NCBI GenBank assembly: GCA_021292105.1
Contig: CM037868.1
Location: forward strand, 25,648,232-25,712,231
Direction of reading: 5' to 3'
Length of the DNA: 64,000 bases
Origin: Anadara kagoshimensis
Taxonomy: Eukaryota > Mollusca > Bivalvia > Arcoida > Arcidae
A model generated the notes under the pieces. It was given only the letters and a program-made list of their open reading frames with translations. It was not told the DNA's origin and did no database searches. Positions within the stretch are counted from its first letter, which is position 1; every line of letters starts with the position of its first letter. Below, in pieces: positions 5,027 to 62,690 of the stretch. Both the position numbers and the translations under genes were made by a program.

Positions 5027-8000
5027 CTGAAATAGACAAGCAAATTCAGTGAATAAGGATGCCAAACAGGAGTGCCCAGAGAACACAAAGGACATTGTTT
5101 GTTTTTTTGTTTTTTTTTTTTTGGTGTGATTTGCACTTATGTTCAAAGGGCAATAACTCCTAGGAAAATGAGCAAACCAACTAGGGTTAATGATATGCAC
5201 ATCTCCTATCAATGTTGATGCTTTGCACCAAGTTTAATGAAATAGTGCCTCACAGTTTTGGAATATTTGCACAAACAAAACTTTCAGATGGACATACAGA
5301 AGCACGGAAGGAAGGACTGACTGACAGACAGATGCTTGAATTTAATACCCCCTCTTTCTTCGAAAGGTGGGGATAAAAAACTCACTGTAAAAAATAACGA
5401 GTAAAGTGTAAATACGACACATATGCCCCCCCCCCCCCCCCCCCCCCGCTTCATTTATGATAAATAAATTGAATGGGGTTCATTCTCCCACTCAATTTTT
5501 CAAGGTTAGCTGTCCTTTGACCTTGAACTTGATGACCTCAATTTGGTACACGACGCATCCTCTTTCCTTAATGTAAAATCTCTTGAAATCACTCTTTTTT
5601 ATACAAAAGTTAAAGAGCGGAAACAGATTCTGGGACGTACCTTAGGACATGGGCAACGCATATTCATGGCAGAGGCATAAAATGGCAAGTCAAAACGGAA
5701 CTCAAACTCTTTTCAGGGGCAAAAATGCCCAACCCCAACTAAGATTTCACCTGGTAATCTTGATATTTCTTATGCCTTTACATACCTTATCTACAGTTTC
5801 ACCATTTTGCACTCAACTTTAGCATTTTGTATCTTTGTAGAAGTGGAGTTGAATAATGGAGTTTTAAGCCTCCGTTAAGATTCTTTCACTTACATTGAGA
5901 CATTCAGTTCAGGAATGATGGAGGAAACAGGAGTGTCCAGAGAACACAAACAACATTCAGCATGTGAACTTAGACTTAGAAGAATACCGGTACTACTGAT
6001 GTTCGACAAGCCAACTGAAAAACTGTCACACACTAGGATCCGTCTCGAGTGGGATTGGAACGTTGGTGGTGAGAGGCCCTTTGAGAAGAGCATGCTTTAG
6101 ACCACTCAGCCACCCTGACCCCCCTAGCCCCACCGCCATCCCCCTACCCCACCCCATAATTTTTTAACTTTTAAGTATATGGATCTATCCGAGTAGGATT
6201 TGAACAGTGAGAGGCACTGTGATCTATCTGTAAAGGCACGCACGCTTGGCCACTGAGGCCCTAACAATCTAAAAATATTATACAATTATTGACTTTTGAT
6301 GAGGTAAACATAAGGATTTATCACCCTCAAAAACATTATATTTACCAAGGCCCTAGGCCAAGGTGAATATTATGCATTTGATGTTGATAGATCATTATGT
6401 CTCCTGAATCGAAAGTCAATAATTTTTTTTATTATATGACCAATGATTTTCATCACCATATTTTTATATATATATTAGATCTTTTATATTACAAAACGTA
6501 AAAACGTGTCCTGTTTTTTGGGTTGTTTTTTTTTCAATATTACATCACATAACGTCCTGTGCATTTTTGCGCGGTGTACATTACCTATTGTTACGTCACA
6601 TACCGTTGTGTGCATTTTTGCGAATGTTATATATAAATGTCGCATGCATTATTTTGCGGTGAACATATCGATTTATCAGGCTCGCCAAACACCATCTCAG
6701 CCAATCAAAAAAAGTTAAAATCATTGGCCAAATAATAATTTTAATAACTTACAAATACACATATTCTCATCAGCCCGGAGCCGTTTGATTTGCTGTCTAT
6801 AGTCAGGGTTGTCTGGTACTGCATAGCTTTTAATAAAGCAGCCATTCCAACTTCACCAATTTTATTTCCTAAAAATTACAAATAATAAGAAATATTGATT
6901 TGATTTAATGTCAATGTCAACCATCTTAGAAATGGTTAATTGTTTAATTGATTGTTTGATTGATTGATTGATTCATTCATTCATTGATTGTTTCATTTAT
7001 TCATTCATTGACTGATTGATTGATTGATCAATTGAAAGGTTGATTAAATGGGGTTTTACATTCTAGTCTTATAAAGAATAATTCACTTATATCAAAATGT
7101 CACCAGCTGTAGATGTAGTGGGTAAAAACACAACGAACACTTTTCTGTACTATATACAATCTTTTCCCCGAGTGATAATTGATGTTTCGCCGGTCACATC
7201 CACAATGTTCCGACAAAGGCCACATCACGGTACCAAAGCAGCGTCACTGCAACTAATGACGGACTAGTGTCAGTGATGTCAGTAAACGGCACAATTCAGG
7301 CTGAGTTTTTTGTTTTTTTGTGTGCAATTCAAGCATGCCAGGCCTTTGTCGGAACATAATGTGTGCGTGGCCAGCAATCTGTCAATTCCCGTACTTTTAC
7401 CAGTAATGAGTGGAGAAAACCTGTTTTACACCCCCAGTCAAACTCTTGAAGTCATATAGAGATATCCAGTTCAAGGATAGCGGAGGTACCAGAGCGTCTA
7501 GAGCAAACCACAAACCTTCAACAAGAAAGCTGACAAACTTACTTAAGAGATTGAAAATAATCAGCATAGAAAATGAATGTGAACTCAGAAAAGTCAGCAT
7601 TTGACTATTCTATCACAGAAGCCCCTTTTTTCATTGTTAAGATTCTGACTTACTTGAGAGATTGAAAATAATCAGCATAGAAAATGCATGTGAACTGTAA
7701 AATCAGCATTTTGACCATTCTATCACAGAAGCCCCTTTTTTTTCATTGTTAAGATTCCGACTTACTTGAGAGATTGAAAATAATCAGCATAGAAAATGAA
7801 TGTGAACTCAGAAAAATCAGCCTTTTAATCATTCTATCACAGAAGCCCCTTTTTTTATTGTTAAGATTCCAACTTACTTGAGAGATTGAAAATAATCAGC
7901 ATAGAAAATGAATGTGAACTGTAAAATCAGCGTTTTGACCATTCTATCACAGAAGCCCCTTTTTTCATTGTTAAGATTCCGACTTACTTGAGAGATTTAA

Positions 8001-11000
8001 AATGATCAGCATAAAAAATGAATGTGAACTGTAAAATCAGCGTTTTGACCATTCTATCACAGAAGTCCCTTTTTTCATTGTTAAGATTCCGACTTACTTG
8101 AGAGATTTAAAATGATCAGCATAGAAAATGAATGTGAACTGTAAAATCAGCGTTTTGACCATTCTATCACATAAGCCCCTTTTTTCATTGTTAAGATTCC
8201 GACTTACTTGAGAGATTGAAAATGATCAGCATAGAAAATGAATGTGAACTGAAAAGTCAGCGTTATGACCATTCTATCACTGAAGCCTCTTTTTTGATTG
8301 TTAAGATTCCGACTTACTTGAGAGATTGAAAATAATCAGCATAGAAAATGAATGTGAACTGAAAAGTCAGCGTTTTGACCATTCTATAACAGAAGCCCCT
8401 TTTTGGATGAGACATGAGACAAAATAGGATAATCAAAATCTCGACTTACTTGAGAGATTCAAATTAATCAGCATTCTATTTCCCGACACCCAGAGTTGAC
8501 CGTCTATAAAATCAGCAGCATCTGTTAAAGGATTCACAAAGTCCGACCCACTGGAATCCTGTAAAAAAATTATGAATAGGAAATCCTTAAAATTTAATTT
8601 GATGGTACAGAAACAATGGCTAATGATAGGATTTAAAAAATTCTCCATCCCTGTTTGATTGAATCACAAGGACCAGCTTCATAATAATTTTTTTTTCTTT
8701 AAAAAGTACCCGAAATCATCAAATCATCATTTAAAATTCATATTGGTCACATGACTGGTCACATGACAAGAACTTTCAGACCAGGGCCCAGTTGCACGAA
8801 ACATAATTAGAGTTAATTATTAATTATACCAAATTAACACAAAGATAATTATGCTAATTGTGGCTTATTTCAATCAACAATTAATTTTACTTATGCTCTG
8901 TGCAAAAGTCCCTTATTCACAAATAATGTGTTCTAAAATTTCCCCATTTAGGTTGGCATAAATGGTGTGCCCCTTACCTCTAGTTCAGAGGCCTCAGTGG
9001 CCTAATGAATAAGATGTCAGTCTACAAATCCATGGTCTCTCATCACTGTGAGTTTGAGCCCTGCTCAGACCACATGTGGGAAAGTGAATTTTCCTTTACT
9101 GGTTCACTAGGTGTCAATATAATGTGACTGGGGGAGTGGTACGCTTGTCTGTGGTGTACTAACTTGGTGAGCTTACACTTTAAAAGTCGCCCCGAGTGCC
9201 CACTGGTACAAGGCAGACTATAAAACACACTCGCACTTCACAAGCAAACACAAACTTGTTCAAAGAATAATCCATAGAGATTAATAAAAGTAGTTCTTGT
9301 CGCAAATAGCTGAAAAATTGCTGATGCGACGTTAAGCAACATTCAACAACAGCAACTTTACCTCTGGTTCCGTATGTGTAGGTTTTCCCTTATCTTTCCC
9401 GCCTTTTCCTTTCCCTTTTCCTGCAGTCTTTGTGTCAGCTGCTATAGATGCTGTTAGAAAAACAAAACCCTTCATGACTCCAAATCTTTACATGAAAAAA
9501 CTAGGTAAAATATTTATCTTTATACACCCTACAAAATTCTGAAGCTTAAATCGCATTATGAATCCATTTTTTTTTTCAAATTTAAAATAGATCTGAAAAA
9601 AAGTCAACATTTTAATTTTCATATTCAACAAATCTTAAAATTCAAAATTAAAAAACAAAAATTCAAATTCGAAATTTATATTAAAAAAAATTCAAAATTT
9701 TTCAAAAAATTTCAAATTCAAAATTCAAAATTGTAATTTTAAAAAAATCTAGAAATCCTGAAAATAAAAAGTAGACGCATACAAATATTTCAACATATTT
9801 TTAGATAGTGACAATTAAATTCTGCATGATAATTGGAAATGACATGAAGGTTTCAGCACTTTTCATTACTTGACCAATGCAGAAGTGTCATCTATGGTGC
9901 GAGTTGCCATTAAAAAAACATACATATACTTGAAAATAACATCATTTGAATTTATGAGTTTCCAATTTTTTTTTTATTTGAAAACCATTTTTAATATAAA
10001 ATAAATAATTGTGAATATATAATGAAGGTTTCAGCACGTCATTACTCGGCCGATTCAGAAGTGTCATCTATGGTGCTAGTTGCCATTCAAAAAACATACA
10101 TATACTTGAAAATAACGTTATTTGAATTTATCAGTTATGAGTTTCCAATTCTTTTTATTTGAAAACCATTTTAATATAAAAAAAAATAATTGCGAGAAAG
10201 TTTGTCAGCACTTGCTAAGGTCTGTGATTTTCACTGGATACTCAGTGTTCCTCAGCCATCTCAGAATTAACCACCACCTTGTAATAAATGCAAAAAATCT
10301 TAACTGTGGTGTTTATAAACACTGATCACTTCATTTTGACTTTAACAAACAGCATCAAAAATTAAGCTGAAATTATAAAAGTCCCTAATCTAAAACTTAT
10401 ACAAATGTAACAGTTAAGAGTTTTTGTACAAGAGAATTACATAAGAAAGCTGTATGGGGCCAAATGGAAAGAACCAATGTGTCACAAAGCTAAAAACTGT
10501 TTGAAAAAAAGCATGCAAACTGCTGCAATAAATTATATGACATAGGTACGTGATGTATAAAAGAATTTCTGAAATATTACCGGCCCAACTGAAATTTACC
10601 AATATGATTAAATTAATGATATATCTGATTTGATGGAACCGTCCCTAGGTTTAAAAAAAAAAAAAAAAAAAAAATACACACATAAAATCATGCAAATTGC
10701 AGCTTTTATTAAATTTGTATGTCAAATTCAATGCAAGGCATCAAAAGTCCATCAAAAATGCATTTTAAAATTTGTGAATAATAGCAAATTACAAAAAGGA
10801 AAATAATAAGAAGATGAGAAAATGTTCTGACATATGATAAAAAATAAAAATAAGAATTAAAACATGAGTGAGAAATAATTCTAGTCATCAGAAGAAAATT
10901 TAAATGAAAGTTTTTTTGTTTTTTTTTTAATTAGAATTTGCAATACATTTAAGGCATTTTTCTTAAAAAAAAGCTAAAAAAGAAATTTCATTGATGTTAT

Positions 11001-17000: not shown

Positions 17001-20000
17001 CAATTAAAGATATGATAATTTAAAAGAATTGGTCACAAATATAAATTTATATTTTTATAATTTTAATGTCTTTAAGAGAAGTGTTATGAAATTTTCTTGT
17101 AACAAGCCTAACCGAGAGTGAAGCAAGATACACCTGTTTACAATATGGCGGATGTTATTACCACATATTTTTTATACCTGTATAACTGTACGCATGTAAC
17201 TTCATACATCGATTGAATAAGAATAAATGGTCCAATTTAGAATTAAAACAAAATTTTATTGATATTTTCACAAAAAGTTGCTGTCTAAATCATTGATGAT
17301 CGATCTTTGATAGTGATAAACTGCAAAAAAAAAAAAAAAAAAAACAATCCAACTGTATGACTAAAACAAAATGGCGCATCTAAAACCGTGTTTACGTTTT
17401 ATAGCAAAATAATCTATTATTTGACTAAAATATGACAAATTTCTATTAAATATACTTTAATTATCACTAAATTGATGTATTTATAGCCAATCATAAAGTT
17501 ATAAACCCCATGTACATGTAATTACTATAAAATACGGGTATAAAAAATATGTGGTAATAACACATTTGTTATTGACACGTACGGGGCAATAAACACTTTG
17601 TTTACAATTTTGCCATTCAACTGTAAATGGTAAAGACGGCAACGATGCCATTTTTACATACAAAGGTACATAAATATTTGAGTAGTGAAAAGGAAACAAA
17701 AATATGGCTCTTAGTTCATAATATGTCTGTTCTTTTTCATTAGTTGGGGTGGAGTAGGTTGGATAAAAAAACTACGATTAAAATTTCAAAGGGGCATAAC
17801 TATGAGAAATTTGCAGGGTTACCTCCTCTCCTGTTATCAAATCCTGGTAATCGTGTATAATAAGTTTTAAGTAAAAATAACAGTTTTGGATTATGGATGG
17901 AGAGATGGACCATGCCTTACCAATAAATGTCCAGTTTCTAGAAATGGGCTTATAAAACAGTTATAAAATAAAGTTTCGGATTATGGATGGAGAGATGGAC
18001 CATGCCTTACCAATATATGTCCAGTTTCTAGAAATGGGCTTATAAAACAGTTATAAATAACAGTTTTGGATTATGGATGGAGAGATGGACCATGCCTTAC
18101 CAAAATATGTCCAGTTTCTAGAAATGGGCTTATAAAACAGTTATAAATAACAGTTTTGGATTATGGATGGAGAGATGGACCATGCCTTACCAATAAATGT
18201 CCAGTTTCTAGAAATTGGCTTATAAAACAGTTATAAATAATAGTTTTGGATTATGGATGGAGAGATGGACCATGCCTTACCAATATTTTCCAGTTTCTAG
18301 AAATGGGCTTATAACAAGGTTATAACATAAAAGATGAATCATGTTCATAGCAGAGTTGAAGCTTTTGTTTAGAATAAAATGTATATGTGACAGTACCAAG
18401 TAGAAATCCCATCTACGGAACAAACTGACAATCTAAGTAATCAAGACAGTAAAAGTATGTCATGATGACGCCGCGTCAAATTATGCACAGCACCTGTTCA
18501 CTGAATATTTCATTATTTTTTAAGTTTTGATGAATCTTCAGTGAAAAACAATACATAACACATGCATGTTCTTTCACATGTTCCAATACTTGCCGTTTTC
18601 AAAAAAAGAAGTCCTTTACATTTGTGGACGAAGTTAATACTGTACATAAACATGATTTATGTATAGGAAAATGATTAAATTGACTGACCTTTGACCTTTG
18701 TATTTTTATGTTTAGAAACATTAATTATGACAAACTCCCGAGTTAAAATTTCAAATCTAGTGCCTTTGTTACAGCAATTAAAATTTAAAAATATTCAATT
18801 TGTTCCGTAGATGGGATTTCTACTTTGTACAGTCACATATATACTTGGCTAAAGCAGGATTGGCCTAAAGTGAAGTACATTATCTCAGAAGAAGGTTTAA
18901 TTTTTTGTGAAGATATGACTAACTTGTATACTATTATTAGTGGCATGCATACAACTTATAGACATTAACATGGGCTATTTTACCACCTAATCTATTCATA
19001 TCTGATTAACAAAGACCTTTTACAACCCACCATTAGCAACTCAAATAACAGGCTGACCAATTTGAGGGATTTATTCATTTTTGACGGATTTGTTTTATAC
19101 AAACAGATAATGGACAGATAAAATAAAAAGTCAAATTAGACAGATTTTTCCCATTTTGACATTTTTTAAATTAAAAGCACTAAAAATTCAGACTTTTTGT
19201 AAAGAAATTGTACCAAAATCAAACACTTAATGATAAAAAGCAACCTTGCACACTAAAAATGTACCAATCTGGACAAATAAGTAGATTTGATTGGTCAGCC
19301 TGAAATAAGACCCCTTGTTTAAAACTAAAACTCAACTCGCAACTGATTGCTATGTGGAAACTCAACTCACAACTGATTGCTATGTGGAAACTCAACTCAC
19401 AACTGATTGCTATGTGGAAACTCAACTCACAACTGATTGCTATGTGGAAACTCAACTCACAACTGATTGCTATGTGGAAACTCAACTCACAACTGATTGC
19501 TATGTGGAAACTCAACTCGCAACTGATTGCTATGTGGAAACTCAACTCACAACTGATTGCTATGTGGAAACCCAACTCACAACTGATTGCTATGTGGAAA
19601 ATTATTTTCACTTACTAGTTTTGGCTAGAAACTCACATTAGATTAACATAGGCCATTTTACAAACCACACTTTACTTATATAGATTACTACAGGTCATTC
19701 TGCAACAAAGACTCAAATACCTGGGCTAAAAATACCTTTTTACAACCCAACTAACTCGGATTAACACACAACCAAACATTACCAACTCATATAAGATTAA
19801 CATAGGCCATATTACAACCCAAACTTTACCTACACCATTCTAAAACATAGCATTAAAATAGGTAATTTTATAATCCAACCTACTTATATTAAGCCCTTTC
19901 TGACCCAAAACACCTCATTTTAGATATTCAAAATTAATATTAATAAGCCTTTTCCACATCCTAACAACACCTACTCATTTCAGACACATTCAAATATGAA

Positions 20001-37846: not shown

Positions 37847-38236
37847 TGCATCATCATCATCATCATTGCATCATCATCATTACTAATGCCAGCATCATCA
37901 TCACTGCATCATCATAGTCATCACTAATGTCATCATCACCACCACCATCATCATCATCACCAATGCCATCATCATCATCACTAATGCCATCATCATCATG
38001 AGTTTTTAACATCATCATGATCATTATAATATTCATCATCACTGTATTGTCGTCATCATCATCATCATCATTAGCACGAAAGCCATCATCATCATCATTA
38101 TCAGTTACATTAATATCATTATCATCATCATCATATTTATTTATTTATTTATTTGTTCATATATTTATTTATTTATTTATTTATTTATTTATTCATTCAA
38201 ATATTTATTTATTTATTTATTTATTCATTCAAATAT

Positions 38237-38267
<31 letters not shown>

Positions 38268-41200
38268 CTTACAGATTTATTTCTGTCAGGTGATCCTTTG
38301 TCAGAGAACAGTTTTCTTCTCTCTACGACCTCCTCATGTGACAACGGAAATCTGGATAAAACCTATGTGACACAAACAAAAACAAAATAATATCAGAATT
38401 ATTAATGGTAGTATCGCAGCATCAGTTCAAAATCAAAACCTTTGGTTATTTTGGGGTTTTACTCAAATTTGTATTTTAAAAATCACAAAATAATATTTTA
38501 AAAAATGGCCAATGTGTTACATAATTGGAATACAATAACACAAGCAAACTATTTAAAGTTGTCTCCACCCACCAAAATTTTAGATATTGTCATTTTTTGA
38601 AAAGAGGGTCTTGTTGCAAATATGTCAAAATGAAATTTACAAGTAAAGTCAAATCTTCGTTATAAGGATCAGTAAAGTTGTATCACGATCCCTCTTTATT
38701 CAGGTTAATTGAGGGATCCTCAGCCACGCCCACAATGTTCTGATAAAGACCCGGCATGCTTGAATTATACACAAAACGAATGAAAACTAGGCCTGAATTG
38801 TGCCTTTTAATGACGTCACTGACACTAGCATGTCATTAGTTGCTGTGACACTGCTTTGGTATCGTGATGGCGGCCAGTGTCAGAACATAAAAGGCATGGC
38901 TAGAGATAAGTCAATTGAACCTGTATATAAAAGCAACCTGCCTATAAAGGTAAAGTTTACTAATTCCCTTTTATAGACAGGTTTGACTAATTGCAAAAAG
39001 AAAACTTGAAAGTAACAAAAATTACTGGTGACACTAAAAACATAAGGAAACATAATATTTCTGTCTGTTATAACCTTCTTCATGAAACATGATGGTTGAT
39101 TGGTTCGTTGAATGTTGCTTTACATTGAATCAGCAATTTTTCAGCTATTCGCGATGAGAACTATTTTATTAATCTCTATGGAATAATCTAGAAACAATTT
39201 CATGTATGCATGTGAAGTGCAAGTGTGTTGTATGGTCTGCCTTGTATAAACGCACACTCAGGGCGACTTTTACATGCTAGCTCACAGAGTCAGTACACCG
39301 CTGACGAGCGTACCACTCCCCCAGTACATTATACTGATACCAGGTGAATCAGTAAAGGCCAACGGCAAGGAAAATTCACTTTCCCACATGTGGTCTGAGC
39401 GGGACTCGAACTCACAGCGGTGAGAGATCCTGGATTTGAAGACTAACGTCTTAACCATTAGGCCACCTCGGCCTCCTCATGAAATAGGAATTTGAAGGGT
39501 TAAAGTTTGATTCCACATCTGTCTAATCAGGGGTCTACACTAACTTTTGGGGGTTGGTGCTATAAACTGCATAGGCCTTTAAATCTTAGGTGCTAAATCA
39601 ACTGGAACCTGTGAAATGTTTACCATAACTATTATAGCAATCAAATATTTTGCATTTGTCACAGGTGATTATTAATTAACAAAATACATGATACATTTCG
39701 AGTTTGTTATTTAAATTTTTGTTTTGAATAAATCTGTTACTCAGAATATGTGGATTATGTGAACCAATGCCAACATCAACTACTCCAATATTAAATCAAA
39801 GTTTTTATTTTCCCACTAAAAAATGACTACTATGAACATGATGAATGCGTAGAATGAAATGAATCACTTCAAAATTAGATAAAGAAAAACAAGATTTTTA
39901 TTGATATAAACAAAGACACAACATTGTCATTGTCTCCTATCATTAACATTACACTTCAAAGGTTTGATTTATATACTCCAATCAAGGGAGATCACCCATC
40001 TGGTAACATTAGGTCACAATTTTCAAAATTTAGGTTGAATTTAGCAAAATCGCAGGCTTAATTTTGAATCCTGGCATCGAAGTACATGTAATTAAAAAAT
40101 GGCATTCTGATCATAATATTTTATGGGGTAATGCAAGATAGTGTGGCCCGTGCCAAATTCAATTTAATTTTAAAATGTAATTTTTTATATTTACAATTCT
40201 TTCTTTTATATTTACAATTCTTTCTTTTAATAATTATTTTGTAACTTGGCACTATTTCTTCAATATCAGCTCGTGTGAGATAGGGTTTTTAGCCATGCAA
40301 CATCGGCATATCTCATATGACCACGTGACCCCCTGTGTGGGACATGACGTAATGTTGCGGGAAAATTGATACACATCAAGGGTCATGACCCCAATTGTCT
40401 TTCAAGAGAATTGCGATACAATTGTTTCTGTATGTTTCATCAAAGAGAGATACAGTCTTATTGTAAATATTTAAAAATAAAGATGATCAATTTTGTGTAA
40501 ATCGTAGTTACCTCCCCTAGTCTGACGGCTCCTTTATCACCGATCTGATTACTGGCCAGTGATAATGATAGTAATGTTCTGTTCATTCTTAATCCCTGAA
40601 ATAAAACAAAAAAAATTAACAGATTTGTTTTTTTGAAGTGATATTAGGACTAATTCCTGGCACTAGATTTTATGGCAATATTGGTCTGGCCCCAGTTTCA
40701 CAACCATTCCTTAGCTAAGATTTTTCTTCACTTAAATTAAGCAAATTTTCGCAATCTTTTTTGGAACTACTAATGAATGGCAAATGTCCAGTGATCTATT
40801 TTCTGCTACATGGTACATCTTGGTCAGGTGTCTTGTAGAAAGAAAGCTCATCAACTTCCTTAGTAACATAACAATGCCTACTACATGTACTAGACCCATA
40901 CAGTATTCTGAATATCTCATTATTTGTGCAGATTTTTATTACTAAAACTTGTTTTTACATTATATTTGAATTAACCCCCACAAAAAATTCTCACAACCAA
41001 AATTATATTCTCAGAAATTTAACTAAAACTTCATAGTTTTTTTGGGTTTTTTTTTTGGTTTTTTTTATTGTGTTTTACACCTCGGTGAAGATTTTTTTCA
41101 CATATATCAAGGTGGTCAGTTCGGGAATGGTGGAGGAAAATGGAGTGCCTGGAGAAACCAACCAACCTTTGGCAAGCCATCTGACAAATTTCTCATACTA

Positions 41201-44200
41201 GGATCTGTCCAGAGTGGGATTTGAACAGGCAGTGAGAGGCCCTTTGATTCTTAGACCACTTTAGTGCTTTAGGCCGCTTGGCAACCAAGGCCCAAACTTA
41301 ATACAGTCCAACCTGTCTAAAAGGCCACCTCTATATAAGGGCAACCTGCTTATAAAGGACAGTAGAATTATATTCCAATTGTTCTTTATTCACATTATTT
41401 GAACCTGTGTATAAAGGCCACCTGCCCATAAAGGCCACTTTTACTGGTTCCCTCAGGTGGCCTTTATAGACAGGTTTGACTGTAGTAGACTTACATTTGC
41501 TATGTGTTCCATTGGGTGGCCTTTATAGACAGGTTTGACTGTAGTAGACTTACATTAGCTATGTGTTCCATTGGGGGGCTTTTATAGACAGGTTTGACTG
41601 TAGTAGACTTACATTAGCTATGTGTTCCATTGGGAGGCTTTTATAGACAGGTTTGACTGTAGTAGACTTACATTTGCTATGTGTTCCATTGGGAGGCTTT
41701 TATAGACAGGTTTGACTGTAGTAGACTAACATTAGCTATGTGTTCCATTGGGAGGCTTTTATAGACAGGTTTGACTGTAGTAGACTTACATTAGCTATGT
41801 GTTCCATTGGGAGGCTTTTATAGACAGGTTTGACTGTAGTAGACTTACATTAGCTATGTGTTCCATTGGGAGGCTTTTATAGACAGGTTTGACTGTAGTA
41901 GACTTACATTAGCTATGTGTTCCATTGGGAGGCTTTTATAGACAGGTTTGACTGTAGTAGACTTACATTAGCTATGTGTTCCATTGGGAGGCTTTTATAG
42001 ACAGGTTTGACTGTAGTAGACTTACATTTGCTATGTGTTCCATTGGGAGGCCTTTATAGACAGGTTTGACTGTAGTAGACTTACATTAGCTATGTGTTCC
42101 ATTGGGAGGCTTTTATAGATAGGTTTGACTGTAGTAGACTTACATTAGCTATGTGTTCCATTGGGAGGCTTTTATAGACAGGTTTGACTGTAGTAGACTT
42201 ACATTAGCTATGTGTTCCATTGGGAGGCTTTTATAGACAGGTTTGACTGTAGTAGACTTACATTAGCTATGTGTTCCATTGGGAGGCTTTTATAGACAGG
42301 TTTGACTGTAGTAGACTTACATTAGCTATGTGTTCCATTGGGAGGCTTTTATAGACAGGTTTGACTGTAGTAGACTTACATTAGCTATGTGTTCCATTGG
42401 GAGGCTTTTATAGACAGGTTTGACTGTAGTAGACTTACATTTGCTATGTGTTCCATTGGGAGGCCTTTATAGACAGGTTTGACTGTAGTAGACTTACATT
42501 AGCTATGTGTTCCATTGGGAGGCTTTTATAGACAGGTTTGACTGTAGTAGACTTACATTAGCTATGTGTTCCATTGGGAGGCCTTTATAGACAGGTTTGA
42601 CTGTAGTAGACTTACATTAGCTATGTGTTCCATTGGGAGGCTTTTATAGACAGGTTTGACTGTAGTAGACTTACATTAGCTATGTGTTCCATTGGGTGGC
42701 CTTTATAGACAGGTTTGACTGTAGTAGACTTACATTTGCTATGTGTTCCATTGGGTGGCCTTTATAGACAGGTTTGACTGTAGTAGACTTACATTAGCTA
42801 TGTGTTCCATTGGGAGGCTTTTATAGACAGGTTTGACTGTAGTAGACTTACATTAGCTATGTGTTCCATTGGGTGGCCTTTATAGACAGGTTTGACTGTA
42901 GTAGACTTACATTTGCTATGTGTTCCATTGGGTGGCCTTTATAGACAGGTTTGACTGTAGTACACTTACATTAGCTATGTGTTCCATTGGGAGGCTTTTA
43001 TAGACAGGTTTGACTGTAGTAGACTTACATTAGCTATGTGTTCCATTGGGAGGCCTTTATAGACAGTTTGACTGTAGTAGACTTACATTAGCTATGTGTT
43101 CCATTGGGAGGCCTTTATAGACAGGTTTGACTGTAGTAGACTTACATTAGCTATGTGTTCCATTGGGAGGCCTTTATAGACAGGTTTGACTGTAGTAGAC
43201 TTACATTAGCTATGTGTTCCATTGGGTGGCCTTTATAGACAGGTTTGACTGTAGTAGACTTACATTAGCTATGTGTTCCATTGGGAGGCCTTTATAGACA
43301 GGTTTGACTGTAGTAGACTTACATTAGCTATGTGTTCCCTCGGGTGGCCTTTATAGACAGGTTTGACTGTAGTAGACTTACATTAGCTATGTGTTCCCTC
43401 GGGTGGCCTTTATAGACAGGTTTGACTGTAGTAGACTTACATTAGCTATGTGTTCCATTGGGTGGCCTTTATAGACAGGTTTGACTGTAGTAGACTTACA
43501 TTAGCTATGTGTTCCATTCCTGTGTCGGATATATGATTCCCAGCTAAGTTTAATGATATAAGTTTGGTATTGGATTTTTTTATTTGTCCGAGAGCCAATC
43601 CTAGTTGTTCTGCACCTTTATCTGTTATACCACAGTATCTGAGAGATAGGTTCTGTACTCTGTAAAATACAAACAAGTCCATGAGTCACAGGTCCTCTTT
43701 GAAATCGGTTGAGTTGGTTAATGGTGTTTAGCGTACGTCCCAGTCAAGAATATTTCACTCATAACAAGTCATTGTCAGCTATAGGCAATGGTTCAGAAAT
43801 TTTGCAAGTGTGTTGCACTGATGGTATTATACAGCAGGGATCCTTATTGTCCCAGGCCTACCTTGACAAAGGATAACGTTTTTTTTAAGTTTCCATCAAA
43901 CAGAACCATGACAGGGAAAAAAAGAAATCACATTCGCCAGTGGGGACGTACAATTTCTACATGATATAAATGAAGATCTTTAACATGTTTAACAAATGAT
44001 GGATGCTCTAACATTGTCAGTGAAAGGCACCAAGATCTGTATGTGCCCATTTTATACCACTCAGCGACTAATGATAAAACGATTATCGACAACAATCACT
44101 GTTAAGGATATGATTTTGGTCATCAATTTAGAGTTGGCCGATTTGATTATTGGTAAACCGGACACACTGCCAAAAAAGGTGCTCTGATTATGGAGGAAAA

Positions 44201-47200: not shown

Positions 47201-50200
47201 ATCACAAAGATTGTGTAAAAGTTTCATGAAAATCCATTGAAGGGTTTAGGAGGAGTTGCGGATAAGAGATAGGTACCCTTAGGTGTAACGGAAGGACGGA
47301 CGCACGGACGGACACCCCTAACACTATATACCCCCCACTTTTTAAGCGGGGGGTATAATTAATGGTTTAGCCATAGTCGACTCTGCTCTGTTGACAGATG
47401 GATGGACGGACAGAAAGACAACTTTTAACATAATGAATCCTAATAGAATCTTACACCAGTAACAGTGAATATTTTCTTCTGTCTTACACTCTTACTGGTG
47501 AAGGATACGTTTTCTTACACATTAGTAACACAAAAATGTGAACAAGTATTTGCATCATATGTTCAGTTTTCATGCCACCATGTGTGTCTTCTGAAAATGA
47601 CATCATCAAATTTTGTTGACATTCTTGCGTGAAATGATTGCTATGTCATCAATTCAGTGTCCATAAGTGATCATTTCTCACCTGGGATGTATTTATTTTT
47701 TTATTGAATCAGATTTAAAAGTCAGAGAAATCCATTTAATGTAGGAGATTGTTCTTGTAATCTGCCTCAACCAGGGCAAGACAGGGAAATCCAGCACTGG
47801 TAAAATAGCTAGATTGTCTGGTCACAGATGTGAGAAATTTCTAGAAACCCCGGTATCAAATCTTAACAAATGCTTTACAAATCTTCATAAAATTTTAATT
47901 CAGTCTGGCTTGACATTTTACTTATTATATAAATATTACATTTCTGATAAGGTGACAGTCCATATTGTCACTCCCAGAAATTTGATTGTCGACCTAGGCG
48001 AAGCAGAGGTTGACAATATATTTCGAGGGGTGACAATATGGACTGTCATCCTATCAGAAATGTAATATTTATTTTATTATACCGATTGTTGGTGTTTATT
48101 ATACTGTGCAACCAAAGTATACAGGGTAAATATAATTGTGCGATGCTTGTAACATTGATCATATTTAACATTACTTTAGAAAAGTGTTTAACCGATTTAG
48201 AAGACAAATTCATTCGAACCGCATACACAGTTTTTCTGTCATTTTTCATAATGTCAACCGCTCAGATAATGTCACCCTGTGATTTAAGATTTTCTGAAAT
48301 CCAAAGGTGATAATAAATTTACTCAAACGCTTAATAACCAATTAACAAAAGATACAATAGGAAATGGCTGCCTCAACTACAACAAGAACTATCACATGTA
48401 TACAGTCAAACCTGTCTATAAAGGTTGCACAAGGGAATCGGTTAAAATGGCCTTTATGGGCAGGTGGCCCTGTATAAAGAGGTTCAAATAACATGAATAA
48501 AGAGCAATTGAAATAAACTTTTACAGGCCAGCAGCCCTTATATATAGAGGTGGCAGGTTTGACTGTATTTCTCTCTAAATCTCGCAATTCTGTAACTCTG
48601 AAAATATGTCTTAGAAATCCTAGTTCAGATTTATAAAAGATTTTTATGCCTGATACAACAAGTAAAGTAACTTTAATATAAGCAAAAGATAATATTTAAA
48701 AAGACCTGAATTTTTTCTCCACAGTATACCTTAATTATATTTTATGGCTAAAAAAAATTAACAATACAATGTTGGTTGGTTGGTTGAATGTTGCTTAACC
48801 ATGTTAACGTTGCATTAGCAATTTTTCAGCTAATTGCAACAAGAACTATTTTATGAATTTCTATGGATTAATCTATGAACAAGTTTATGTATACATGCAT
48901 GTGAAGGGCCAGTGTGTTGTATGGTCTGCCTTGTACTAGCGCGCACTCAAGGCGACTTTAACGTGCAAGCTCACAGAGCCAGTACGCAGCAGACAAGCGT
49001 ACCACTCCACCAGTCACATGATACTGATATCAAGTGAACCAGTAAAGGCCAACGGCAAGGAAAATTAACTTTCCCACATGTGGTCTGAGCGGGGTTCGAA
49101 CTCACAGCAATGAGAGACGACATCTTATCCATTAGGCGACTGCATCTTTCAACAATATAATGTAACGACTATTAATGTGTATTTAACATCAAAGGATAAA
49201 AAGTACTAAAACAAAATACTATAAAATCCCTGACGTTTTGGTGACACAGACACCATTTTCAAGGGTTTGATTCATGTAGCCAGGTAATGAGTATCAATGG
49301 CATCATAGAATAGATAGCGACGTCAAACTATTGTTTTCTGTTTAGCAGAGTCCCAAATTTTGGGATGTACATACTTTCCCGCTCCCTACTATGAAAAACA
49401 TTGTCTGTGATAACCTTTTCAATACCAGCAACTAAAACATCTTCAGTCCCGTTGAGGTCTAAACTGTTTAAATGCAACATGATACAAGTAAACAAACCCT
49501 TGAAAATGGTGGCTGTGTCAATGAAATGTCGGGATTTTACAGTATTTTTTAGTACTTTTTATACCTTTTGTCAAATAGACAATGAGAATTTAACATAACA
49601 TTACAGGAGATGAATGTTATATCTAGCTTGTCAAGGGAGATAAATCTTATATTTACCTCTGATGTATATTTCTGTGACCGTGTCTAGTTTATCAAGAGAG
49701 ATAAATGTTATATCTAGCTGGTCAAGGGGATAAATCTTATATTTACCTCTGATGTATATTTCAGTGACCGTGTCTAGTTTATCTGGATTCTCCATTTCTA
49801 CCTGCACAGATGGTTTGAAGTATTCAAACTTATCTTTTAAAGTGTAAGTTTTTGGCGGAGGATCTGTACCACATAAAAGTAAAAAAAAAATAAAAACATA
49901 ATTAATATTTTATATCAGCATTTATATATACCCTTGTATACAGTAAAACCTCGTTATAATGCCTCTCGCTAACACTGCTACTCATTTATTGTCACAGTAT
50001 TTTGAAGTTCAAAAATCTATTTACATTATTTTTTTCATTGTACATTTTTCCAATGGTGGAGGAAACTGGAGTTCCTGGAAGAAACCACTGACCTTTGGCA
50101 AGCAAACAGACAGACTTTCTCAGACTAGGATATGTACTGAGAGAGATTTAAACCTAAAAACAGGCCCCGGTTTCACAATCATTCCTTAGCTAAGATTTTC

Positions 50201-62097: not shown

Positions 62098-62690
62098 ATC
62101 ATGCTATAGTGACCATCTCTATATAAAGACCACCTGTCTTAAAGTAAAATCTGCTATAGTGACCACCTCTATATAAAGACCACCTGTCTATACAGTAAAA
62201 TCTGCTAAAGTGACCACCTCTGTATAAAGACCATCTGTCTTAAAGTAAAATCTGCTATAGTGACCACCTCTATATAAAGACCACCTGTCTTAAAGTAAAA
62301 CCTGCTATAGTGACCACCTCTATATAAAGATCACCTGCCTTAAAGTAAAACCTGCTACAGTGACCACTTTTGTATAAAGACCACATGTCTATACAGTAAA
62401 ACCTGCTATAGTAACCATCAAAATATAAAACCATCTGTCTAAAAGTAAAACCTGTTACAGTGACCACCTCTATATGAAGTCTGCCTGTCTTAAAAAGTAA
62501 AACCTGCTATAGTGACCACCTCTATTTAAAGACCACCTGTCTATACAGTAAAACCTGCTTTATTGACCACCTCCATATAAAGACCACCTGTCTAAAAGTA
62601 AAACCTGTTAGTGACCACCTCCGTACAAAGACTACCCGTCGATACAGTAAAACTTGCTAAAATTACCACTTCTGTATAAATAACAGCCAG
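62098..62690. repeat. ~50-bp tandem array derived from family E, about 12 copies
   Basis: CTATAGTGACCACCTCTATA and AAGACCACCTGTCTTAAAGT recur every ~50 bp. Some units contain TACAGTAAAACCTGC, the family E end. Minus-strand open frames are repeat artefacts. Confidence 0.88.

Follow-up and report, generated by a model that had tools for sequence, protein, structure and literature searches.

An LRRC71-like gene of Anadara kagoshimensis carries, at the end of its exon 7, a tandem array in which the exon's 5' splice site is present 35 times, each unit joining the exon end and the donor to one end of a MITE. The assembly also holds a second gene copy with the same exon, donor and MITE and no array. 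A transposon end served as seed, the unit includes coding sequence, and comparison with the array-free copy locates the founding event to the exact base. Taken as a whole, the best explanation, and in our view a probable one, is that a MITE inserted behind exon 7, a duplication between two GGAAC words made the first chimeric unit, and one-sided amplification left an array that is mainly tolerated as intron sequence, with the first donor dominant. The window (the whole 64,000-nucleotide stretch analysed) is C12:25648232-25712231, and genome searches covered the 1.115-Gb assembly of 36 contigs. We refer to the gene copy in the window as the home copy and to the second as the sister copy.

The gene model comprises 14 coding exons on the minus strand, from 58880 to 4910, placed by open frames and splice signals (Table 1). 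The joined home exons are open, with phases that fit within exons 1-10 and within exons 11-14, as two separate parts; the phases of exons 10 and 11 do not fit each other, so at least one exon is absent from the model there, and the 13 donors tested are not all of the gene's donors. A sequence-only reading of the window had numbered the exon beside the array as exon 7 and had made its case depend on that exon ending at AAT before GTAAGT. The exon is number 7 in the 14-exon model too, it ends exactly there in phase 0, and the rightmost array copy is the real exon/intron junction, as that reading had said. The product matches the LRR_6 domain (Pfam); exon 8 begins GGATTAAGA, and the join of exons 7 and 8 encodes HIAN followed by GLRMNRTLL, amid leucine-rich repeats. 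None of the 52 PDB sequences listed is named LRRC71, though LRR proteins are among them; the name LRRC71, which would fit the human protein, is putative. A protein search of the genome, with all 36 candidates scored, placed the gene's exons at two loci only, with one weak LRR match (35% identity, C2) besides. The mouse gene named LRRC71 is required for male fertility (PMC13279179). At exon 9, the donor (AATAAATCT then GTAAGTAAATAAATAAAT) adjoins a (TAAA)n microsatellite at 38134-38282 of the window, whose span by TRF covers that donor and the exon's last 10 nt; there are no copies of the exon 9 donor.

Table 1. Features of the home copy discussed in the text (window coordinates).
Feature	Position	Strand	Content and basis
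Exon 3, ending ACATCAGAG then GTAAAT	49747..49863	-	Gene model
90-bp repeat, two copies, over exon 3 end and donor	49607..49783	-	TRF, donor-copy alignment
Exon 7 of the LRRC71-like gene, 160 nt	43500..43659	-	Ends ATAGCTAAT then donor, phase 0; open frame and splice phases
Original intron 7 5' splice site, GTAAGT	43494..43499	-	Read from sequence; gene model
In-frame TAG, 17 codons on, if any downstream donor is used	43446..43448	-	Translation
59-bp array of 35 units, 35 donor copies with the original	41452..43515	-	Unit: 16 nt of exon end, GTAAGTCTAC, TA, MITE's first 31 nt
Founder-like units 2 and 3, CCCGAG junction	43339..43456	-	Match the sister-derived prediction at all 59 positions
Resident 179-bp MITE, imperfect TIRs	41304..41482	-	TA at 41302-41303 and 41483-41484; supplies 31 nt per unit; read from sequence
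Exon 8, 84 nt in phase 0-0, encoding 28 aa (roughly one LRR)	40512..40595	-	Gene model
Exon 12, ending AATCTCTCAA then GTAAGT	8450..8558	-	Gene model
110-bp repeat, nine copies of exon 12 end and donor, the first being the real one	7537..8474	-	TRF 7537-8404; first copy by alignment

TRF finds a 59-bp period with 34.9 copies and 97% matches at 41459-43518. Cutting the minus strand at GGAAC gives 35 units, exon 7's own junction included (34 of 59 bp and one of 58 bp), which bears out the earlier estimate of about 34 extra copies of the exon 7 5' splice site. The founder unit is made up of 16 nt of exon end, 10 nt of intron, TA and 31 nt of MITE, so that exon end and donor account for 26 of its 59 bp. 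Every unit had been said to hold the exon end, an intact donor and the element start. The chimeric unit does occur 35 times, but GTAAGT is kept in 34 of the 35 units, the exception being unit 31 with GTTAGT, and GCAAAT replaces GCTAAT upstream of the donor in six of the 35. Unit 10 has GTAAGTG instead of GTAAGTC. Among the 34 units of 59 bp, 9 of the 59 columns are variable; the array holds 12 distinct unit sequences, and units 13-15 repeat units 10-12 except for one base. A relaxed junction pattern matched 35 times on the minus strand, never on the plus strand and once at the sister locus. Genome-wide, GTAAGTNNNNTACAGTCAAACCTG gave 45 matches: 32 in the home array, one in the sister copy and 12 elsewhere, these last being separate sites with the donor followed by four bases and the MITE start. 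The repeated junction pattern is not due to chance; the array's size is as found in one assembly.

A genome search with the array end revealed a further junction at C12:24758324. It lies in the sister copy, which is in inverted orientation 0.93 Mb from the home copy and has all 14 exons in the 70 kb read. There, exon 7 is followed by the same donor and the same complete MITE, the donor is single, and intron 7 is 576 nt long versus 2904 nt at home. The two copies of exon 7 differ by 3 mismatches in 161 nt. Over exons 2-14, the copies differ at 25 of 1419 nt and 1 of 472 aa (dN 0.0009, dS 0.083), exon 1 being excluded from this count because its frame is broken in the sister copy; by this measure, both gene copies look constrained. 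In sister exon 1 (C12:24739468-24739569), two one-base deletions disrupt the frame from the first ATG, with exons 2-14 intact, and these deletions may reflect sequencing error, an alternative start codon or early decay. Collinear blocks of at least 400 bp total 67 kb at 93.2% identity in the 144 kb of home and 150 kb of sister sequence read. About 35 kb upstream of the home gene is without such a block, partly owing to N runs of 10, 5 and 2.5 kb. The home/sister pairing persists at 25.900/24.547 Mb; for a query taken at 25.400 Mb, no partner to its first 755 bp was listed among the 40 of 1563 candidates scored.

The sister copy lets us predict what a first duplication would look like. In it, the distance from the GGAAC of the exon end to the GGAAC of the MITE is exactly 59 bp, and a tandem duplication between these two words predicts the junction CCCGAGGGAACACATAG and a 59-bp unit. 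Because this predicted unit is identical to home units 2 and 3 (59/59), a microhomology origin of the array is well supported by sequence comparison. The sequence-only reading had proposed just such a microhomology-mediated first unit, and the sister copy corresponds to the array-free state from which it would have come. A longer shared word, GTTCCATT, had also been suggested, which is unneeded: the sister's resident MITE and both founder-like units read CCCGAGGGAAC. At the end of 32 of the 35 units, CAAT stands in place of CGAG; the final unit continues into the resident MITE with CTGAG. The form CAATGGAAC at the remaining junctions probably reflects later conversion, with the exon or other MITE copies as donors of the sequence; CAATGGAACC is present in MITE copies elsewhere in the genome. 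In this reconstruction, a Tc1/mariner-like MITE would have entered a TA 10 bp downstream of the exon 7 donor, after which the 5-bp microhomology between the GGAAC of the exon end and that of the MITE would have produced a 59-bp tandem duplication, and with it a second unit of exon end, donor and MITE end. Unequal exchange or slippage, the former of which is plausible, would then have raised the number to 35 in one gene copy or haplotype only, with patchy conversion in which the adjacent exon or another MITE copy turned CGAG into CAAT. The sister's single unit could instead be the remnant of a former array and not the ancestral state, as contraction down to one unit would give the same appearance.

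The duplication model begins with the MITE, which occupies the identical TA site in both gene copies. The sister element is likewise 179 bp long, with imperfect TIRs of 26-27 bp. The element shows a TA target duplication and TIRs starting CAGT, marks typical of a Tc1/mariner-like MITE. A complete copy with its TA target-site duplication adjoins the array and the unit contains its end, which makes the array a MITE-derived tandem repeat. Is it then an ordinary MITE-end satellite that took in the exon part by accident? Tandem arrays of this MITE end also occur at four other loci that we read, with units of 46, 47, 47 and 75 bp (C7:362000-363499, C11:34515500, C11:32030400 and C12:29700), and because of this the MITE itself seems prone to forming arrays. 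The window also has a 50-bp array with TIR-like text (GACCACCTCTATATAAAGACCACCTGTC) at 62102-62680 by TRF, perhaps from a related element. However, host sequence is absent from the consensus units of the four arrays read elsewhere, whereas exon end and donor make up nearly half of the unit here, and the repeats at exons 3 and 12 of the gene (see below) match only LRRC71-like loci. We regard the satellite interpretation as unlikely for the array as a whole, though it may be partly true, in that the MITE may be the seed that destabilises such loci.

What would 35 donors do to splicing? As in VNTRs that span a 5' splice site, the first repeat unit contains the donor of the exon and later units offer it again. 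A scoring matrix built from the other 12 donors of the gene was applied to intron 7: of its 191 GT sites, counting the real donor, 34 score at least as high as that donor, and all of these are AATGTAAGT. The array thus offers 33 extra AATGTAAGT donors and one mutated donor; because each intact extra donor shares the real donor's 9-mer, the core site gives no preference for the first. Use of a later donor reads VSLLQSNLSIKATQWNT and then TAG in each of six downstream donors tried, and this stop applies to every downstream donor because it falls in the first 54 nt. By this translation, mRNAs spliced at a later donor should lose the remaining protein and be open to NMD. The sequence-only reading had the gene forced to pick the correct donor among about 35 near-identical ones, which goes further than the DNA evidence: in human ABCA7, the closest studied case (see below), retention of one unit is rare. 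By analogy with ABCA7 and with splicing and NMD in other animals, most transcripts would use donor 1, beside the exon body, and exon 8, which is in frame, is perhaps a candidate for skipping that depends on array length. The intron would then largely tolerate the array, apart from a slight leak to the next donor and possible length-dependent skipping of exon 8. Two other roles were considered and dropped. Ratchet sites of recursive splicing consist of an acceptor joined directly to a donor (AG then GT), and the unit has no such AG-GT; intron gain was set aside for a unit that reads AAT then GTAAGT, with TACAG apart from the GT. This TACAG has 7 pyrimidines in the 12 nt before its AG, as many as the poorest of 13 real acceptors, which have 7-12, and appears weak as an acceptor that would make each unit a small exon.

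Exon 7 is one of three exons in this gene with a donor-spanning repeat. At exon 3, the home copy has two donors, the second at +90 and in frame (+30 aa), and the sister copy has three (0, +92 and +153), of which both extra ones lead to a stop. At exon 12, the home copy has nine donor copies versus two in the sister, and the extensions reach a stop. In genome searches that skipped very common words, the exon 3 and exon 12 repeats matched only the two LRRC71-like loci. Acceptor copies were found for 0 of 14 acceptors in either gene copy. Per position, donors showed no enrichment for a near copy within 3 kb, at home (3 of 13 donors versus 532 of 3000 positions drawn at random and 63 of 254 random GTAA sites) or in the sister (2 of 13 versus 354 of 2869 and 27 of 248). 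When one founder unit is counted per array, 0.36 donors are expected and 3 are seen (P = 0.006; 0.004 by simulation), or 0.32 and 2 without exon 7 (P = 0.04); for acceptors, the values are 0.36 and 0, and for all boundaries 0.72 and 3 (P = 0.04). This test used 22 arrays with a period of at least 20 over the gene span, merged by hand from TRF, and was devised after seeing the data, and the clustering at the gene's donors is only a hint. Two further arrays with a GT-donor-like word (17875-18330 and 57965-58318) overlap none of the placed exons. It is tempting to see in these repeats a recurrent, tolerated form of variation, in which the first donor saves the protein and genes with long introns gather haplotype-variable "donor ladders" that tune splicing, with the LRRC71-like gene holding three, at exons 3, 7 and 12, one of them MITE-seeded. 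We consider so broad a view rather improbable.

Tolerance is also what distinguishes our preferred account from one in which the exon 7 array is functional, its copy number tuning productive splicing through decoy U1 sites, poison extensions or skipping of exon 8. Such a role might be read from the donors that stay intact in 34 of 35 units, from the three donors with repeats that all differ in number between gene copies, and from ABCA7, where VNTR length inversely tracks expression and accompanies more exon skipping (PMC5954066). However, 50 of the 59 columns are invariant and just 9 vary, a sign that the intact donors reflect youth and not selection; the sister copy manages without an exon 7 array, and the tandem-repeat background at random positions and GTAA sites is high. 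We judge a functional array to be improbable. That the array is an assembly artefact or has the wrong length is very unlikely, for although tandem arrays are difficult to assemble and this assembly apparently holds un-purged duplicates, the units differ in an ordered way (12 distinct sequences, one unit of 58 bp), the array ends join a unique exon and a complete MITE, and a collapse or false repeat would not yield the predicted founder junction.

Repeats of this kind are already known. By its title, a 1995 report by Turri et al. is said to describe, in IFI6 (6-16, G1P3), a minisatellite that supplies multiple splice donor sites to the transcript; unlike our array, it reportedly has a 12-bp unit near the donor consensus and no transposon part. 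The human ABCA7 intron 18 VNTR is a tandem repeat directly behind an exon that includes the donor, with units that start with the GT of the donor and a copy number ranging widely, from 12 to ∼427 units (PMC5954066). Use of the next donor there retains one unit and leads to a frameshift and a premature stop; this retention amounts to 2 ± 1% and is unaffected by length in cell lines, while longer VNTRs give more exon 19 skipping and VNTR length is negatively correlated with expression (PMC5954066). The repeat of ABCA7, a human Alzheimer's risk gene, shows that a donor-containing VNTR can accompany both changed splicing and disease risk (PMC5954066). In contrast to our case, the ABCA7 unit is 25 bp long and starts at GT, with no mention of exon sequence or a transposon end in the sections of that article consulted, and its RNA effects were measured (PMC5954066). 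Here RNA effects are predicted, and one gene has three donor-spanning repeats. In human segmental-duplication genes, for which 27 intron modifications are reported, repeats at exon-intron boundaries also differ in number between near-identical copies, but these have units of 30 bp and 4 copies on average, half lie in coding exons, and some create novel introns (PMC2812944). MITEs are likewise known to yield minisatellites and satellites, with bivalve examples among them (PMC9659126), but the LRRC71-like unit differs in being a chimera with an exon end and a donor. What is new is this transposon-exon chimera, the preserved array-free copy and the presence of three such repeats in one gene. In a limited look through open-licence literature, we found no report of a donor array in LRRC71 or of a MITE-seeded, donor-spanning array.

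Are the two gene copies alleles or paralogues? The sister may represent an un-purged second haplotype, or it may be a paralogue. Keeping haplotype copies side by side is a well-described assembly error (PMC9516828). For 24 of 80 kinase-like matches, a near-equal twin lies within 3 Mb on the same contig, in the same or the opposite orientation, although four of the 24 belong to a single group on C8 and could be genuine tandem genes; for two matches, the twin is elsewhere. The two kinase pairs compared show 97.7% identity over 1.5 kb and 97.5% over 1.2 kb, the latter mostly outside its 176-aa open frame. These twins likely represent haplotype copies retained side by side across the assembly. Against alleles, the divergence of the home and sister copies, with 93% identity and a dS of 0.083, is high for alleles and exceeds that of both kinase pairs measured. 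On balance, we lean towards alleles. If the copies are haplotypes, then the difference of 35 versus 1 donor copies between two gene copies of one assembly is a difference between the haplotypes of one animal, and it would offer a natural test of how the spliceosome handles equal, consecutive 5' splice sites. Two side observations came from these searches. At C2:37.37-37.48 Mb, 56 kinase-like matches, 19 of them at an equal 246.5 bits and many ∼1845 bp apart, form a young tandem gene cluster. A 1.24-kb repeat from C12:25400756 recurs in at least ∼40 places, with several inverted pairs ∼4 kb apart (e.g., C14:67178046 on the plus strand and 67182044 on the minus strand), and may be an element whose terminal inverted repeats are very long.
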